From assembly GCF_013364155.1 (NCBI RefSeq), contig NZ_CP054916.1, forward strand, positions 7,408,001-7,472,000: a DNA stretch of 64,000 bases, given 5' to 3'. A model generated the notes under the pieces. The model ran no database searches and was not told the DNA's origin. It saw only the letters and a list, made by a program, of their open reading frames with translations. Positions 1,912-36,125 of the stretch are shown here, piece by piece; the first letter of the stretch is position 1; each line of letters begins with the position of its first letter. The position numbers were made by a program, and so were the translations under genes. Origin of the DNA: Streptomyces sp. NA02950. Its GTDB lineage: Bacteria; Actinomycetota; Actinomycetes; Streptomycetales; Streptomycetaceae.

Positions 1912-3153
1912 GTGGACAACAGCGGGCAGCCGCAGTCCGACAACGGGGGATCGGACCGGACGACCGAGCCGGAGGCAGGCAAACCGCGGCGCCCACGCGA
2001 GGTGGGCGGCGGGATCCTGATGGGCCGGCCGTTCGGCGTGCCCGTCTATGTCTCTCCCAGCTGGTTCCTGGTCGCCGCCCTCATCACCTGGGTCTTCGGC
2101 GGACAGCTCGAGCGCGTCCTGCCCGAGCTCGGCGCCGCACGCTACCTGGTCTCGCTCTTCTTCGCCGTGGCCTTCTACGCCTCCGTGCTGGTGCACGAAC
2201 TGGCGCACACCGTCGCCGCGCTCCGTTTCAAGCTGCCGGTGCGCCGGATCCAGCTCCAGTTCTTCGGCGGGGTCTCGGAGATCGAGAAGGAGTCCGAGAC
2301 ACCCGGCCGGGAGTTCGTCCTCGCCTTCGTCGGCCCGCTGCTCTCCCTGGTGCTTTCCGGTGTGTTCTACCTCGGCATGCTGCTGGTGGAGCCCGGCACG
2401 GTGCCCGGGGTGCTGCTCGCGGGGCTGATGATCTCCAACCTCATCGTGGCCGCCTTCAATCTGCTGCCCGGCCTGCCGCTGGACGGCGGGCGGATGCTGC
2501 GCGCCGTCGTGTGGAAGCTCAGCGGCAGGCCCATGACCGGCACCGTCGCCGCCGCCTGGAGCGGCCGGGCGCTGGCCGTGGCGGTGCTGGTCGGCCTGCC
2601 GCTGCTCACCCAGGCCGGCGGCCTCGGCGGTGAGCCCGAGGACTTCGGCAGTGTGGACTCGCTCACCGACGCGCTGCTCGCCGCCATACTGGCCGCGATC
2701 ATCTGGACCGGTGCGGGCAACAGTCTGCGGATGGCCCGGCTGCGCGAGCGGCTGCCGGATCTGCGCGCCCGCACGCTCACCCGCCGCGCCGTCCCGGTCG
2801 AGGGCGACACCCCGCTCTCGGAGGCGCTGCGCCGGGCCAACGAGGCCGGGGCCCGCGCCCTGGTCGTGGTGGACGCCCACGGCACCCCGACCGCCGTGGT
2901 GCGCGAGGCGGCCATCGTCGGGATCCCCGAGCACCGCCGCCCCTGGGTCGCGGTCAGCGGCCTGGCCCAGGACCTCAAGGACGGTATGCGCGTCTCCGCC
3001 GAGCTGACCGGCGAGGAGCTGCTGGACACCCTGCGGGCCACCCCCGCCACCGAGTACCTGGTGATCGAGGAGACCGGCGAGATCTACGGGGTGCTGTCCA
3101 CGTCCGACGTCGAGCGCGCCTTCGTCGCCGCCATGGCCCGTACGCCCTCCTGA
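1912..3153 (+). CDS. Site-2 protease family M50 metalloprotease with CBS region
   Basis: Start chosen as GTG at 1912 because GAGGGG lies 5 bases upstream; an in-frame ATG at 1852 has no such signal. This gives 413 residues. The zinc motif HELAH is at about residues 95-99 within a membrane segment, and the second motif NLLPGLPLDGG supplies the zinc-binding Asp. Several hydrophobic segments fit a polytopic intramembrane protease of the Rip3/SpoIVFB type. The C-terminal 130 residues resemble paired CBS domains (GARALVVVDAHGTPTAVV and EYLVIEETGEIYGVLS), probably a ligand-sensing module. The substrate is likely an anti-sigma factor or similar, but this cannot be told from sequence. Confidence 0.92.
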   Translation: MDNSGQPQSDNGGSDRTTEPEAGKPRRPREVGGGILMGRPFGVPVYVSPSWFLVAALITWVFGGQLERVLPELGAARYLVSLFFAVAFYASVLVHELAHTVAALRFKLPVRRIQLQFFGGVSEIEKESETPGREFVLAFVGPLLSLVLSGVFYLGMLLVEPGTVPGVLLAGLMISNLIVAAFNLLPGLPLDGGRMLRAVVWKLSGRPMTGTVAAAWSGRALAVAVLVGLPLLTQAGGLGGEPEDFGSVDSLTDALLAAILAAIIWTGAGNSLRMARLRERLPDLRARTLTRRAVPVEGDTPLSEALRRANEAGARALVVVDAHGTPTAVVREAAIVGIPEHRRPWVAVSGLAQDLKDGMRVSAELTGEELLDTLRATPATEYLVIEETGEIYGVLSTSDVERAFVAAMARTPS

Positions 3154-30323: not shown

Positions 30324-31472
30324 GTGTCCAAGCTGCGAGCTGAACGCCTGTACAAGGTGTTCGGCAGACGACCCGATGAGGCGGTGTCGAAACTCGAGGG
30401 CGGCACCGACCGTGAGACCTTGCGTGCGGAGGGTACGACGGCGGCGGTCGTCGACGCCTCCTTCGACGTCGAGGCGGGCCAGATATTCGTCGTCATGGGT
30501 CTGTCCGGATCTGGTAAGTCCACCCTGCTGCGCATGCTCAACGGACTCCTGGAGCCGACCGCGGGACGCGTGCACTTCGACGGCCACGATCTGACCGCAC
30601 TCGACCCGCGCGATCTGCGCCAGGTGCGCTCCCACAAGATCAGCATGGTCTTCCAGCACTTCGCCCTCTTCCCGCACCGCAGTGTGCTGGAGAACGCCGC
30701 TTACGGCCTGGAGGTCCAGGGCGTACCGGGCAAGGAGCGGTTCAAGCGCGCCGCCGAGGCGCTGGAGATGGTGGGGCTCGGCGGCTGGGAGCGGTCCTGG
30801 CCCGACGAGCTGTCCGGCGGTATGCAGCAGCGCGTCGGCCTCGCCCGCGCCCTGGCCACCGACGCCGATCTGCTGCTGATGGACGAGTCCTTCAGCGCGC
30901 TCGACCCGCTGATCCGCCGCGATATGCAGGACCAGCTGCTCCAGCTCCAGAGGCGGCTCAAGAAGACGATCGTCTTCATCACCCACGACCTCAACGAGGC
31001 CATGCGGCTCGGTGACCGCATCGCCGTCATGCGCGACGGCCGGATCGTCCAGATCGGCAGCGCCGAGGACATCCTGGTCTCCCCGGCCAACGACTACGTC
31101 GCCTCCTTCATCCAGGACGTCGACCGCAGCCGGGTGCTCACCGCCGGAGCGATCATGACCGAGCCCGGCGAGGTGCTGGGCACCACCACCGATGACGGCA
31201 CCACGCTCCGCACCGAGCGGGACGTACTGGACGCCGCCCCCGCCACCGTCACCGCGGACACCCCGATCATCGAGCTGTTCACGCCCTGCTCCCGCAGCGG
31301 TGTGGCGGTCGCCGTGACCGACGACGACGGCTCGCTCGTCGGTGTCGTCTCCCGCGCCCGGCTGCTCGCCGTCCTCGGCGACGGCGACGACGGTCCCGAC
31401 GGTGCGAACCCACCGGCACCCGGCGAACCGGACGCTCCCGCGTCCGTGAAGAAGGTGATCTCCGGTGCCTAG
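30324..31472 (+). CDS. Glycine betaine/proline-type ABC importer, ATP-binding subunit
   Basis: 382 residues from GTG 30324, five bases after GAGAGG. ProV/OpuAA family: Walker A GLSGSGKST, signature LSGGMQQRVGLARAL, Walker B LLLMDESFSALDP, and switch His in FITHDLNE. The long N-terminal region before Walker A is typical of osmoprotectant importers. A CBS domain near the C-terminus (ATVTADTPIIELF, GVAVAVTDDDGSLVGVVSRARL) usually senses ionic strength or nucleotides such as c-di-AMP. Its stop overlaps the permease start by 8 bases, so the two are translationally coupled. Confidence 0.95.
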   Translation: MSKLRAERLYKVFGRRPDEAVSKLEGGTDRETLRAEGTTAAVVDASFDVEAGQIFVVMGLSGSGKSTLLRMLNGLLEPTAGRVHFDGHDLTALDPRDLRQVRSHKISMVFQHFALFPHRSVLENAAYGLEVQGVPGKERFKRAAEALEMVGLGGWERSWPDELSGGMQQRVGLARALATDADLLLMDESFSALDPLIRRDMQDQLLQLQRRLKKTIVFITHDLNEAMRLGDRIAVMRDGRIVQIGSAEDILVSPANDYVASFIQDVDRSRVLTAGAIMTEPGEVLGTTTDDGTTLRTERDVLDAAPATVTADTPIIELFTPCSRSGVAVAVTDDDGSLVGVVSRARLLAVLGDGDDGPDGANPPAPGEPDAPASVKKVISGA

Positions 31473-34086
31473 GATTCCGCTCGGCGACTGGATCAATTCC
31501 GGCGTCAACTGGCTCCGCGACAACCTGAGCTGGCTCTTCGACTTCATCACCTCCGTCGTGCAGGGCATGTACGACGTGGTGAACTCGGTGCTCAGCGCCC
31601 CCGAGCCGCTGCTGATGGCGGGCATCCTCGCGGTGCTCGCCTGGTGGCTGCGCGGCCTGCTGCCCGCCGTCCTCGCCTTCGCGGGCTTCGCGCTCATCGA
31701 TTCGATCGAGCTGTGGGACGAGGCGATGAACACCCTCGCGCTGGTGCTGGTCGCCGGTGTGATCACCATCGTGTTCGCGGTGCCGCTGGGCATCTGGGCC
31801 TCCCGCAACCGCACCGTGAGCGCGGCGATCCGCCCGGTGCTGGACTTCATGCAGACGATGCCCGCCTTCGTCTATCTGATCCCCGGCATCTTCTTCTTCG
31901 GCCTCGGGGTGGTCCCCGGTGTCGTCGCGACCATCATCTTCTCGATGCCCCCGGGCGTCCGGATGACGGAACTGGGCATCCGCCAGGTGGATGCCGAGCT
32001 GGTCGAGGCGGCCGACGCGTTCGGCACCCATCCGCGCCGCACCCTGCTCCGCATCCAGCTGCCGCTCGCCCTGCCCACCATCATGGCGGGCATCAACCAG
32101 GTGATCATGCTGGCGCTGTCCATGGTCGTCATCGCCGGTATGGTCGGCGCCGCGGGCCTCGGAGCCACCGTCTTCCAGGCGATCAGCTCCGTCGATGTGG
32201 CGATGGGCTTCGAGGGCGGCATCGCGGTGGTCATCCTGGCCATGTACCTGGACCGGATGACAAGCGCGCTCAACCAGCGCGTCTCCCCGCTCGCCCGCCG
32301 CGCGCTGGCCAAGGAGCGGGCCAAGGGACTCCGCGGTGCGAAGGTGCTCCACTGGCGGCCCGCGACCTCGGTCGCCATGGTCGGCGTGGTGGTCCTGGCC
32401 CTGGTCGCCGGCGGGATGAAGATGTTCGGCGGCAACGAGGCCGGTCCCACCGTCACCGCCGACGTCGGCAAGGGCCAGTCGATCAACATCGGCTACATCA
32501 ACTGGGACGAGGGCATCGCCTCCACCTTCCTGTGGAAGGAGCTGCTGGAGCAGCGCGGCTTCAAGCCCAAGGTGCAGTCGTACGACGTCGGCGCCCTGTG
32601 GACCGGTATGGCCGCGGGCAACGTCGACCTCCAGACCGACGCCTGGCTGCCCGCCACCCACGCGGCGTACTGGTCGAAGTACAAGAACAAGCTGGAGAAG
32701 CTCGGCTCCTGGTACGACAAGACCTCGCTGGAGGTCGCGGTGCCGTCGTACGTCAAGGGCGTGAAGTCTCTCGAGGACCTCAAGAGCAAGTCCTCCACCT
32801 TCCAGAAGAAGATCATCGGCATTGAGCCCGGCGCCGGTGAGATGAAGCTGATGCAGAACAAGGTCATTCCGGAGTACGGGCTCAAGAACTACACCCTGGT
32901 CAAGGGCTCCACCGCGGCGATGCTGACCCAGCTGGAGCGCTCGTACGCCAAGAAGGAGCCGATCGCGGTCACCCTGTGGTCCCCCCACTGGGCGTACGAC
33001 AAGTACAAGCTCACCAAGCTCAAGGACCCCAAGGGCGCCTTCGGCAAGGGCGATCACCTCGACGCCATCGCGCGCAAGGGCTTCTCGAAGGAGAACCCGC
33101 AGGTCGCGAAGTGGATGAAGCACTTCAAGCTGAGCGAGAAGCAGCTCGGCAGCCTGGAGTCGGCGATCCAGGACGCGGGCAAGGGCAAGGAACAGGAGGG
33201 CGTGCGCGCCTGGCTGAAGAAGAACCCCGGCATGGTCAACAAGCTCGCTCCGGTGCCCGGCGGTGGCGGCGACCAGAAGGGCAAGGACGCCGGTGCCGCG
33301 CCCAAGATCGGCTACTTCCCGTGGGACGAGGACATCGCCACCACCTATCTGTGGAAGAACGTCCTGGAGCGGCGCGGCTACAAGCCGGAGATCAATCAGT
33401 ACGACGTCGGGTCGATGTTCACCGGTATGAGCAGCGGGCAGGTCGACGTCGAATTCGACGGCTGGCTGCCGGTCGCGCAGAAGCCGTACTGGGACCGGTA
33501 CAAGAAGAATCTCGTCGATGTCGGGGCGTGGTACGACAAGACCTCGCTCGAGATCGCCGTGCCCTCCTACGTCAAGGACGTGAAGTCCCTGGCGGACCTC
33601 AAGGGCAAGTCCGGCCTCTTCAAGGGCAGGATCGTCGGCATCGAGCCGGGCACCGGCGAGATGAAGCTGCTCAAGGGCAAGGTCCTCAAGCAGTACGGCC
33701 TGGACAAGGAGTACGAGGTCACAGGCGGCTCCTCCCCGGCGATGCTGGCGCAGCTCCAGCGCTCGTACGCCAAGAAGGAGCCGGTGGCCGTCGTCCTGTG
33801 GTCCCCGCACTGGGCGTACGACAAGTACAAGCTCACCAAGCTGGCGGACCCGAAGAAGGCGTTCGGGGCCAACAACCAGCTGCACACCCTCGCCAACAAG
33901 TCCTTCCCGCAGAAGTACCCGGAGTTCAACGGGTGGCTGAAGAAGTGGCACATGAGCGAGAAGGAGCTGGCGAGCCTTGAGGCGGCCGTGCAGGACGCGG
34001 GCAAGGGCAACGAGGAGAAGGGTGTCCAGAAGTGGATGGACGCCCACCCCGGCATCGTGGACCAGATGGCGCCGGTGACTTCCTGA
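31465..34086 (+). CDS. Betaine-type ABC importer: permease fused to two substrate-binding domains
   Basis: 873 residues. The N-terminal permease half (about 1-285) has membrane segments and the EAA loop ELVEAADAFGTHPRRTLLRIQLPLA. Another membrane helix (about 300-320) precedes substrate-binding domain 1 (about 335-590) and domain 2 (about 612-873). Both are OpuAC/ProX-like, with the aromatic residues of the betaine cage in GYINWDEG/GYFPWDED, DAWLPATHAAYW/DGWLPVAQKPYW and LWSPHWAYDKYKLTKL. The domains are clearly tandem duplicates. Fused permease-receptor proteins are known (OpuABC), usually with one receptor; two per chain would give four per transporter dimer. Confidence 0.94.
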   Translation: MPRIPLGDWINSGVNWLRDNLSWLFDFITSVVQGMYDVVNSVLSAPEPLLMAGILAVLAWWLRGLLPAVLAFAGFALIDSIELWDEAMNTLALVLVAGVITIVFAVPLGIWASRNRTVSAAIRPVLDFMQTMPAFVYLIPGIFFFGLGVVPGVVATIIFSMPPGVRMTELGIRQVDAELVEAADAFGTHPRRTLLRIQLPLALPTIMAGINQVIMLALSMVVIAGMVGAAGLGATVFQAISSVDVAMGFEGGIAVVILAMYLDRMTSALNQRVSPLARRALAKERAKGLRGAKVLHWRPATSVAMVGVVVLALVAGGMKMFGGNEAGPTVTADVGKGQSINIGYINWDEGIASTFLWKELLEQRGFKPKVQSYDVGALWTGMAAGNVDLQTDAWLPATHAAYWSKYKNKLEKLGSWYDKTSLEVAVPSYVKGVKSLEDLKSKSSTFQKKIIGIEPGAGEMKLMQNKVIPEYGLKNYTLVKGSTAAMLTQLERSYAKKEPIAVTLWSPHWAYDKYKLTKLKDPKGAFGKGDHLDAIARKGFSKENPQVAKWMKHFKLSEKQLGSLESAIQDAGKGKEQEGVRAWLKKNPGMVNKLAPVPGGGGDQKGKDAGAAPKIGYFPWDEDIATTYLWKNVLERRGYKPEINQYDVGSMFTGMSSGQVDVEFDGWLPVAQKPYWDRYKKNLVDVGAWYDKTSLEIAVPSYVKDVKSLADLKGKSGLFKGRIVGIEPGTGEMKLLKGKVLKQYGLDKEYEVTGGSSPAMLAQLQRSYAKKEPVAVVLWSPHWAYDKYKLTKLADPKKAFGANNQLHTLANKSFPQKYPEFNGWLKKWHMSEKELASLEAAVQDAGKGNEEKGVQKWMDAHPGIVDQMAPVTS

Positions 34087-34112
34087 CCCACCGCGTCACC
34101 GCCACGACCGCC

Positions 34113-34156
34113 CGCCGCCGCGGTCCGGAGCTTCCCCGCTCCGGGCCGCGGCGGCG
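34113..34156 (+). terminator. Intrinsic terminator after the importer operon
   Basis: A 19-bp stem (34113-34131 with 34138-34156, one wobble) with a 6-base loop, 27 bp after the permease stop. Confidence 0.85.
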
Positions 34157-34220
34157 GCGTACCGGCCGCTGCCGTCCGCTCGGCGGGTGCGAAGTGGCCC
34201 GGGGGCGGTGGGAAATTCGG

Positions 34221-34250
34221 ATGACGGCCCCGGGGAAGCGGCCCTAGGGT
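34221..34250 (+). promoter_or_regulatory. Probable vegetative promoter of the Y-RNA/TROVE locus
   Basis: ATGACG at 34221-34226 and TAGGGT at 34245-34250 are separated by 18 bases, a fair match to Streptomyces vegetative promoters (TTGAC and TAGRRT). Transcription would start near 34257, just before the structured RNA. Confidence 0.45.
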
Positions 34251-34256
34251 CGTACC

Positions 34257-34365
34257 CGTGAACGCACCTCCCGGTGCGAAGACGACGGTTACTTCGGTCG
34301 ATTTGGGTTCGATTCCTGAAACACTCCGCCCCGCGCGGAGTGGGAAACTCCGTCGTCGCCTCTGA
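34257..34365 (+). ncRNA. Probable Y-RNA-like (YrlA-type) transcript with tRNA-like T-arm
   Basis: Upstream of the Ro/TROVE gene. A perfect 8-bp stem (34281-34288 with 34350-34357) closes a domain. Inside it are a T-arm mimic, stem 34302-34307/34315-34320 around the 7-base loop TTCGATT (34308-34314), and a perfect 8-bp hairpin 34322-34329/34335-34342. GGTTCGATTCC is the diagnostic tRNA T-loop sequence, yet there is no acceptor stem or CCA, so it is not a tRNA. Bacterial Y RNAs of the YrlA class carry such a tRNA-like module and are encoded beside Ro genes. The ends are approximate. Confidence 0.6.
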
Positions 34366-34514
34366 TCTCGGGAGACGCGCGCACACCTGCGCCGGCGCCC
34401 GGTGCGCGGGCAGCGGTTACTTCCCTTCCGCGAAAACACCGCCGCCACCTCGATCCCGGGCGCCGCCGCCGAGTCCGTGCGCGGTCTCCTCCTGTGCTCA
34501 CTCGGGGGAGAAGC

Positions 34515-36125
34515 ATGAGCAAGTTCAACCGCGCCGCGCGGCGCACCGCCACGGCGACCACCTCCGAGGGCGGCGCCGCCGTCACGCGCGACACCAAGTC
34601 CGAACTGGTGCTGCTCGCCGTGGTCAACATGGTCGGTGAGCAGACCTTCTACGAGTCCTCCGACGACCGCGACAACCGCTTCCGCGGTCTGGTCCGCGCC
34701 GTCGCCGTCGAGGACGCCGACTGGACGGCCCGCTTCATCACCTGGCTGCGCGCCGAGGCCCAGCTGCGCAGCGCCTCGCTCGTCGCCGCCGCCGAGGCCG
34801 TCAAGGCGCGCCTGGAGGCCGGGCTGCACGGCGACAGCCGCCGCCTCGTGGACGCCGCGTGTCTGCGCGCCGACGAGCCCGGCGAACTGCTCGCCTACTG
34901 GACGGCCACCTTCGGCCGTGCCGTGCCCAAGCCCGTCAAGCGCGGTCTGGCCGACGCCGCCCGCCGCCTCTACACCGAGCGCGCCCTGCTGAAGTACGAC
35001 ACCGCGAGCCACGGCTTCCGCTTCGCGGATGTCCTGGAGCTGGTGCACGCCGCCCCGGACCCGGACAAGCCGTGGCAGGGCGAGCTCTTCCGGCACGCCG
35101 TCGACCGCCGCCACCAGAAGGACGCGGCGGCGCCGCCGGTCTCGCTGCGCATGCTGCGCGCCCGCGCCCGGCTGATGGCGCTGCCGCAGTGGGAGCGCCG
35201 CGCGGTGCTGGAGCGGCCGGACGCCGCCGAGGCGCTGGCCGCCGCGGGGATGACCTGGGAGGCGCTGGCGGGCTGGCTCCAGGGGCCGATGGACGCGGTG
35301 GCCTGGCAGGCGGTGCTGCCGTCCATGGGCTACATGGCGCTGCTGCGGAACCTGCGCAACTTCGACCAGGCGGGCGGGACCGGGCTGCCGGACGAGGTCG
35401 CCGAGCGGGTCGCCGCCCGGCTGGCCGACCCCGCCGAGGTCGCCCGCTCCCGCCAGTTCCCGTACCGCTTCCTGTCCGCCTACCGGGCCGCGCCGTCGCT
35501 GCGCTGGGGCCACGCGCTGGACAAGGCGCTGACGGCCGCCACGACGTCCGTGCCGAAGCTGCCCGGCCGCACCCTGGTGCTCGTGGACACCTCGGCCTCG
35601 ATGCTGAGCACGGTCTCCGGCCGCTCCCAGGTGCGCCACGTGGACGTCGGCGCGCTGTTCGGGGTGGCGCTGGCCCACCGCGGCTGCCAGGTGGACCTGG
35701 TGGGCTTCGCCTCGGGGCACTTCACCCACCGGCCGGCCACGGGCGGTTCGGCGCTGCGCGGGATCGAGGAGTTCTGCGCGCGCGTCGGCGAGGTGGGCCA
35801 CGGCACCGAACTCGCCGCGGCGCTGCGGAACACCTACCGCGACCACGACCGGGTGGTCGTCATCTCGGACATGCAGACGTTCCCGTTCGCCGCCGACGGC
35901 CCCTCCGTCCCGGCCTCGGAGGCCGTCCCCGCGCGGGTGCCGGTGTTCGGCGTCGACACCACCGGGTACGCGGCCTCCTCCATCGACACCCGGCGGCCCG
36001 GCCGGTACGAGATCGGCGGCTTCAGCGACAAGCTGTTCACCATGGTGGGACTGCTGTCGGAGCAGGGCGGTGGCGCCGGCCGGCCGGTCTGGCCGTGGGA
36101 GGAGCGGAGGCCCGCGGCGGCCTGA
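34515..36125 (+). CDS. Ro60-like TROVE-domain RNA-binding protein
   Basis: 536 residues from ATG 34515 behind GGGGGAGAA. The N-terminal two-thirds is the TROVE ring of helical repeats (FRGLVRAVAVEDADWTARFI, LRSASLVAAAEAVKARLEAG, MGYMALLRNLRNFDQAG). The C-terminal von Willebrand A domain has the metal-site motif DTSASM at about residue 357 and ISDMQTFPF. Ro proteins bind misfolded RNAs in the ring and Y RNA on the outside. In bacteria (Rsr) they work with nucleases such as PNPase in RNA decay and stress survival. A candidate Y RNA lies directly upstream. Confidence 0.95.
   Translation: MSKFNRAARRTATATTSEGGAAVTRDTKSELVLLAVVNMVGEQTFYESSDDRDNRFRGLVRAVAVEDADWTARFITWLRAEAQLRSASLVAAAEAVKARLEAGLHGDSRRLVDAACLRADEPGELLAYWTATFGRAVPKPVKRGLADAARRLYTERALLKYDTASHGFRFADVLELVHAAPDPDKPWQGELFRHAVDRRHQKDAAAPPVSLRMLRARARLMALPQWERRAVLERPDAAEALAAAGMTWEALAGWLQGPMDAVAWQAVLPSMGYMALLRNLRNFDQAGGTGLPDEVAERVAARLADPAEVARSRQFPYRFLSAYRAAPSLRWGHALDKALTAATTSVPKLPGRTLVLVDTSASMLSTVSGRSQVRHVDVGALFGVALAHRGCQVDLVGFASGHFTHRPATGGSALRGIEEFCARVGEVGHGTELAAALRNTYRDHDRVVVISDMQTFPFAADGPSVPASEAVPARVPVFGVDTTGYAASSIDTRRPGRYEIGGFSDKLFTMVGLLSEQGGGAGRPVWPWEERRPAAA

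Follow-up and report, generated by a model that had tools for sequence, protein, structure and literature searches.

The segment at positions 34260-34470 of the window (the whole 64,000-nucleotide stretch of Streptomyces sp. NA02950 DNA analysed here) very probably encodes two tandem Y RNAs, likely served by a single promoter that they share with rsr, the Ro60/TROVE gene that follows them. Ro60 is a human autoantigen, and proteins of its family rely on Y RNAs in the quality control of RNA. The best reading of the pair is that both are genuine Y RNAs predicted to be bound by Rsr, one of a reduced YrlA type and the other minimal. Comparative analysis of related loci shows that both RNAs have in common a two-part handle, built from their paired ends and consisting of a lower stem that carries a bulge and a small mismatch and an upper stem topped by TTACTTC, and that this handle is conserved and covarying.

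The two RNA units of the rsr locus

The 428 bases that separate the end of a transporter ORF (34086) from the TROVE start (34515) carry two tandem RNA units, both on the + strand (Table 1). A preliminary description of this DNA had placed a Ro protein at 34515, which holds: from that ATG, the product scores 45.3 bits against PF05731 (cut-off 23) and matches the TROVE proteins of PDB 9l5y/9kop with an E value of 2.8e-19. Its VWA-like half reaches 23.5 bits against VWA_2, under the cut-off of 27, and a MIDAS-type motif, DTSAS, was recognised by eye. No rtcB gene adjoins rsr, the RtcB genes of this genome being located at 4.14 and 9.18 Mb and the window at 7.41-7.47 Mb.

Table 1. Coordinates of the features at the rsr locus (positions in the window).
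Feature	Position	Strand	Evidence or remark
Promoter-like element: TGACGG (34222-34227), 17-nt spacer, TAGGGT (34245-34250)	34222..34250	+	Conserved columns; putative function
Predicted Y RNA 1, reduced tRNA-like type, complete unit	34264..34379	+	R1 58.4 bits, E 7e-10; R2 51.0 bits, E 8.5e-11
Y RNA 1 lower stem, 5' strand (presumed Ro-binding)	34268..34278	+	Pairs with 34363-34374
Y RNA 1 upper stem, 5' strand, GACGACGG	34281..34288	+	Pairs with CCGTCGTC, 8/8 pairs
Conserved TTACTTC element 3' of Y RNA 1 upper stem	34289..34295	+	Columns largely invariant in A1-A3
T-arm mimic, 7-nt loop TTCGATT at 34308-34314	34302..34320	+	Loop in 13/13 aligned units
8-bp hairpin 3' of T-arm, CACTCCGC (34322-34329) / GCGGAGTG (34335-34342)	34322..34342	+	8/8 pairs
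Y RNA 1 upper stem, 3' strand, CCGTCGTC	34350..34357	+	Pairs with 34281-34288
Y RNA 1 lower stem, 3' strand, TGATCTCGGGAG	34363..34374	+	Pairs with 34268-34278
Predicted Y RNA 2, minimal type, without tRNA-like module	34392..34467	+	R2 53.7 bits, E 1.8e-11
rsr, Ro60/TROVE protein, 536 aa	34515..36125	+	Start ATG 34515, protein encoded at 34515-36122; PF05731 and PDB matches

Upstream of the first unit, the preliminary description had also noted a -10/-35 pair. An automatic consensus scan of the locus found no promoter, but the element is supported by its conserved columns, with TG and TA...T invariant in 13/13 aligned loci and a spacing of 16-17. This conserved TGAC...TAnnnT would start transcription shortly 5' of unit 1. 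A scan of 34080-34530 detected no terminator-like site and, taken together with the promoter-like start, the lack of such a site before rsr makes a single transcript, later processed, likely. A ~20 bp, GC-rich, near-perfect hairpin directly 3' of the transporter ORF (34112-34157) was not listed by the terminator scan because it has no T-run; in a permissive Rfam search it gave weak matches to miRNA families. The transporter ORF itself (31465-34086, 873 aa) reads by eye as a permease fused to two similar tandem substrate-binding domains, on the basis of IGY..WDE.IA.T.LWK repeats.

The closing stem, the T-arm mimic and the 8-bp hairpin of the preliminary description are all present in unit 1 at the coordinates given there, the T-arm with a 6-pair stem (34302-34307/34315-34320, two of the pairs being G-U). 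That description does not name the lower stem, and its interval, 34221-34365, stops short of the 3' terminus of the RNA. The lower stem runs from 34268-34274/34367-34374, with one bulged base, to 34277-34278/34363-34364, so that a single-nucleotide bulge and a 2x2 mismatch interrupt it; the matching helix covaries in alignments A1 and A2 (below). Past the upper stem, GGTTACTTC is common to both window units.

The T-loop sequence GTTCGATTC (34307-34315) is kept in 13/13 aligned window-type units, where it follows the pattern GTTC[GA]A.TC; the stems and T-loop are indeed retained upstream of orthologous TROVE genes. The T-stem is missing from the single-sequence minimum-energy fold of Y RNA 1, and its changes among relatives are one-sided. 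The 8-bp hairpin was found in 9/13 aligned window-type units, with 3/6 predicted consensus pairs changed on both sides, partly in doubtfully aligned rows (L009, L010). It starts 1 nt past the T-stem and is possibly the remnant of a closed acceptor arm. As for a D-arm, the window match has deletions at the corresponding columns of covariance model R2, and none that relatives keep was seen by eye; GGAGTGGGAAACTCC (34337-34351) was considered as a D-arm and dropped, since by eye it is not conserved among relatives.

The unit that the preliminary description had missed, Y RNA 2, presents the same handle as unit 1 closed by a short loop. Its lower stem (34393-34406/34451-34465) has one bulge and one mismatch inside, and its upper stem (34409-34416/34439-34446) one mismatch. 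Folding separates the two: Y RNA 2 folds well (z -3.36, 0/200 shuffles as good), while the folding energy of Y RNA 1 is weak (z -1.77, 12/200 shuffles as good; z -2.06 and 4/200 for the interval of the preliminary description).

Covariation and distribution of the units

To follow the units in relatives, loci were fetched by protein, a choice independent of the RNA: the best 80 of 233 places encoding relatives were taken, which gives 81 loci with the window. A motif scan returned 154 unit candidates in 79/81 of them, some overlapping or truncated. Three alignments were prepared: A1, with 47 minimal units (70 found, 49 without near-copies, two truncated ones dropped); A2, with 33 long units (58 initially and 41 once near-copies were removed, from which 8 were excluded by eye because their heads differ); and A3, with 13 window-type units.

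In A1, 93.7% of cells pair, compared with 88.0% in shuffles, and 38 cells are changed on both sides, where shuffles give 6.6 and slid controls no more than 18. In A2, 96.9% of cells pair and both-sided change occurs at 21/34 pairs, amounting to 123 changed cells, where shuffles give 30.4 and slid controls no more than 31; in both alignments the shuffles overstate significance, since the sequences are related, and the slid controls preserve that relatedness. Compensatory changes across the TROVE loci are thus many in A1 and A2. A3 presents both-sided change at 5/30 predicted pairs, its sequences being too similar for more.

Two covariance models were built, R1 from A1 (with window unit 2 among its sequences) and R2 from A2 (which has no window sequence); Y RNA 1 is absent from the training alignments of both. 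On the window, R1 recovered the two units at 69.5 bits (Y RNA 2, a member of its own training set) and 58.4 bits (Y RNA 1), the next best match scoring 14.7; R2 recovered 34392-34467 and 34264-34379 at 53.7 and 51.0 bits, followed by 15.2. Over the 9.77 Mb of the genome, R1 at E <= 0.01 found only the two window units among the 150 of 17232 first-look candidates that were scored. R2 gave two more matches, both partial, one of which is a tandem tRNA-Asn pair.

Over the window and the 80 loci, R2 gave 180 matches at E <= 0.001, every one on the rsr strand; three in the tRNA array of L026 were discounted, leaving 177. A unit upstream of rsr and on its strand is present in 80/81 loci, window included, and at least two units in 74/81; in these counts a match is built in for loci that supplied sequences to A1 and A2. 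Six loci have a single unit (L003, L015, L025, L052, L057, L072), and in L003, a member of the window clade, only the second unit was seen. The exception, L029, has no R2 match at E <= 0.001, and its match to rsr starts only at residue 70. In L026 (87-2218), from a metagenome-assembled genome, an array of 21 tRNA matches is directly followed by the Y RNAs and rsr. The proposal that the RNA partners the adjacent Ro protein is supported by this recurrence at rsr and by the covarying helices.

We then turned to genomes sampled across the class and the genus, samples that may overlap the loci above. The class sample has 296 genomes, our own included, 37 with TROVE. With a cut-off set after the table was seen (full length, >=47 bits), R2 matches 37/37 TROVE genomes and 1/259 others (G269; Fisher p 2e-46). 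The stricter R1 matches 25/37 and 0/259, respectively. At E <= 0.001, R2 matches 76/296 genomes, 39 of them without TROVE; 38 of the latter have only partial matches (scoring up to 47.6 bits) or full-length ones below 32 bits. We take these weak matches to be neighbouring tRNAs, as read out in our own genome and the L026 array only.

In the genus sample (150 genomes, some shared with the class sample), TROVE was found in 80 genomes, an R1 match in 78 and both in 76 (p 5e-35), that is, R1 matches in 76/80 TROVE genomes and 2/70 others. The two genomes with an R1 match and no TROVE match, L136 and L137, have Y RNA units beside a piece of rsr (best pieces of 69 and 109 residues). Of the four genomes with TROVE and no R1 match, L139 and L140 have R2 matches, and L138 and L141, where rsr is present, matched neither model; such absences are soft, as the scans scored only the best first-look candidates, 10 to 31 per genome (150 in our own).

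These results bear on the idea that the segment consists of ordinary GC-rich hairpins with a chance T-loop and no function. The unremarkable single-sequence fold of RNA 1 (z -1.77) and the lack of an Rfam match would suit it. The conservation results contradict it, with compensatory change far above both shuffled and slid controls and a presence that follows rsr in the 296- and 150-genome samples, so that we find it scarcely credible.

A more serious alternative is that the units form a cis-acting leader, in which Rsr would bind its own mRNA and control its translation or decay, with no free Y RNA produced. Their position before rsr, on its strand, in 80/81 loci is consistent with such a leader, as is the absence of terminator-like sites in 34080-34530. 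Against it, the tandem copies and their differing heads are more fitting for trans-acting RNAs. In a Nocardia locus (L081), moreover, five R2 matches in a row (639-1414, two of them weak) end 1.6 kb upstream of rsr, whose match starts at 3001.

Further evidence comes from 14 fetched places with a match not beside TROVE (weaker matches of this kind occur as well, e.g. in G111, G198, G242 and G275). In 11/14, from eleven genomes, the units lie between metK and priA (L115, L116, L118, L119, L121, L129-L134), as identified by Pfam on two and tblastn on all eleven; four of these places (L119, L129, L132, L134) have two R2 matches each, and one metK-priA unit belongs to G269, the genome without a TROVE match. 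Of the other places, L117 is beside an amino-acid permease and L120 between two MFS genes; near the L135 unit, MetK, PriA and Rsr were not found. The metK locus of our own genome (L142) has no unit. Units away from rsr argue for action in trans, and we regard a purely cis-acting leader as unlikely. The reading as trans-acting Y RNAs is preferred, and the units may have a dual role, in cis and in trans.

tRNA-like heads and their reduced form in the window

The class assignment of the preliminary description, YrlA, applies to unit 1 in part, the T-arm being present, the D-arm absent and RF02553 giving no match. At gathering score, Rfam reported no Y RNA in the window or in 15 loci, and a permissive search of 34000-34700 (E <= 10) matched neither RF02553 (YrlA) nor Y_RNA. 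The one RF02553 match in our own genome, at 38.5 bits, was rejected as a YrlA since it reads as a tandem tRNA-Asn pair. This pair (L082 1501-1613; C1:6407346-6407458 of our own genome) is scored by both RF02553 and R2; two neighbouring tRNAs resemble one permuted tRNA, and such pairs could give rise to false YrlA annotations.

In relatives, a permissive RF02553 search matched 5/7 loci, all below the gathering score of 69 bits: L044 at 54.9, L016 at 47.8, L020 at 47.3, L070 at 34.4 and 32.1, and L030 at 31.0 bits, with no match in L042 or L026. In L044, the T-arm, closed acceptor arm and D-arm are in register with the model, which stops at the upper stem.

We collected 122 heads, defined as segments with a T-loop at most 70 bases past the handle. 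In 105/122, the seven bases next to the T-loop pair at 6 or 7/7 positions with a nearby strand, as in a closed acceptor arm. When these heads were rotated at the loop of that arm, ARAGORN called 101/105 a tRNA in one or more of 180 joining registers (in just one for one of the modules), the exceptions being L007, the second unit of L031 and a single unit from each of L018 and L021. It called 0/105 in native order (one trial each) and 0/105 in each of three shuffled sets at the same registers. Its anticodon calls on the rotated modules were disregarded, as they vary with the joining register. The loop of the relatives is thus often a circularly permuted tRNA.

Window unit 1, like most of its clade (L002, L004-L006, L008-L014), belongs to the remaining 17 segments, which fail the acceptor criterion; its hairpin has only 5/7 pairs under the adjacency criterion, for which reason it was left out of the ARAGORN test. 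L011-L014 present the T-arm alone, and window unit 1 the T-arm plus hairpin. The heads of this clade may reflect a step-wise loss of the permuted tRNA, and that of RNA 1 resembles an eroded version of the circularly permuted tRNA of its relatives.

One might instead see in RNA 1 a decayed tRNA gene, or a tRNA-derived element, that happens to lie beside rsr and is no Y RNA. Its T-loop and acceptor-arm-like hairpin would agree with this, and so would the acceptance by ARAGORN of the relatives' heads once rotated (101/105). Yet none of the 105 is accepted in native order, no tRNA is found by ARAGORN at the window locus, and the part kept in all unit types, even those without a tRNA module, is the non-tRNA handle. 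We judge this origin highly improbable and retain the reading as a Y RNA with a reduced head.

A further tRNA-like element appears in relatives. In 42/122 heads, from 39/81 loci, the hairpin right 3' of the handle resembles an anticodon loop (>=3 Watson-Crick pairs, 7-base loop, T at tRNA position 33, purine at 37, A at 38), compared with a mean of 0.49 and a maximum of 4 in 500 shuffles; many of the species carrying it are close kin, so that 42 mimics do not equal 42 events. Carriers include L016, L030, L044, L070 and L079, and the window has no such mimic. The stems vary with pairing kept (CCA/TGG 28, CCG/CGG 4, TCGA/TCGA 4, CGCT/AGCG 2, four others once), and the loop is mostly C-U-N-N-U-A-A. 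T36-A37-A38, the frame read by t6A enzymes, is present in 32/42 mimics, with the triplets CAT (12), GAT (10), GCT (4), CTT (4), GTT (1) and GGT (1); among the remaining 10 no triplet occurs twice, making 16 overall. The arms listed for YrlA in the cited part of PMC8394870 are the D, T and acceptor arms, the anticodon arm not being among them.

Proposed roles and relation to known Y RNAs

Mechanistically, by comparison with known Y RNAs, the handle would be the Rsr site, matching the role of the lower stem in the Y RNAs reviewed in PMC4726728; its binding would stabilise the RNA and let the RNA gate the ring. The T-loop of RNA 1 should be a substrate for T-arm enzymes such as TruB, and may tether a second protein, which by analogy with RYPER would be PNPase. 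RNA 2, being headless, would gate the ring without a tether. Rsr would thus get a 'tether' RNA (RNA 1) and a 'lid' RNA (RNA 2), a split suggested by analogy only.

The 3' strand ACUUGA of the relatives resembles hY1. Vertebrate Y RNAs (hY1-hY5) likewise have an end stem with bulges, which in their case is the Ro60 site (PMC4726728); these RNAs differ in that window 34000-34700 has no Rfam Y_RNA match at E <= 10, and bacterial RNAs are described as not homologous with the vertebrate Y RNA clades in the cited part of PMC4726728.

Among bacterial systems, binding of Yrl RNAs by Rsr is reported for Salmonella and M. smegmatis, and the Y RNA-bound Rsr with its PNPase tether is established in Deinococcus (PMC4726728, PMC7790460, PMC8394870). 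YrlA (RF02553; Salmonella rsr-yrlBA-rtcBA, M. smegmatis) likewise lies beside rsr with its ends paired into a stem, and its permuted tRNA-like insert is also present in the relatives of the window. The structure 6CU1, which is Salmonella YrlA (PMC8394870), superposes on tRNA via circular permutation (PMC11472068). The Salmonella rsr operon has two RNAs, yrlB and yrlA, as does the window (PMC7790460). Unlike YrlA, however, window RNA 1 has only the T-arm and hairpin, with no D-arm and no Rfam match, and unlike the Salmonella arrangement both window RNAs precede rsr, which has no rtcB beside it. With the RYPER complex of Deinococcus radiodurans (Rsr-Y RNA-PNPase), likened here by mechanism, we would expect the same scheme, the end stem on Rsr and the head tethering PNPase (PMC4726728, PMC7790460).

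Our search found no literature joining Streptomyces, Y RNA and Ro60; the founding YrlA papers (Chen 2014, Wang 2018, Sim and Wolin 2018, Sim 2020) lie outside its scope. By title, papers on Streptomyces and Ro60 deal with autoantigen epitopes, cancer antigens and lupus treatment only, and 'TROVE domain' with Streptomyces returned a mycobacterial review only, as far as its cited part goes. The bacterial Ro60 work named in the cited parts of the literature found covers a few species.

The present analysis adds two predicted Y RNA genes next to rsr in Streptomyces and two covariance models that detect units where the Rfam model stays below its cut-off. More broadly and quite tentatively, Actinobacteria could possess a modular family of Y RNAs, encoded by several genes, whose handle carries nothing, a lone T-arm or a permuted tRNA, often with an anticodon-loop hairpin of differing anticodons. 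Acting in trans, also from metK-priA, such RNAs might imitate tRNAs and thereby bring tRNA-specific nucleases or modification enzymes to Rsr, or act as decoys for them, and the window pair would be this disguise pared back. Nature offers here a graded series, from complete tRNA mimics to handles without a head, that lets the roles of handle and head be separated.
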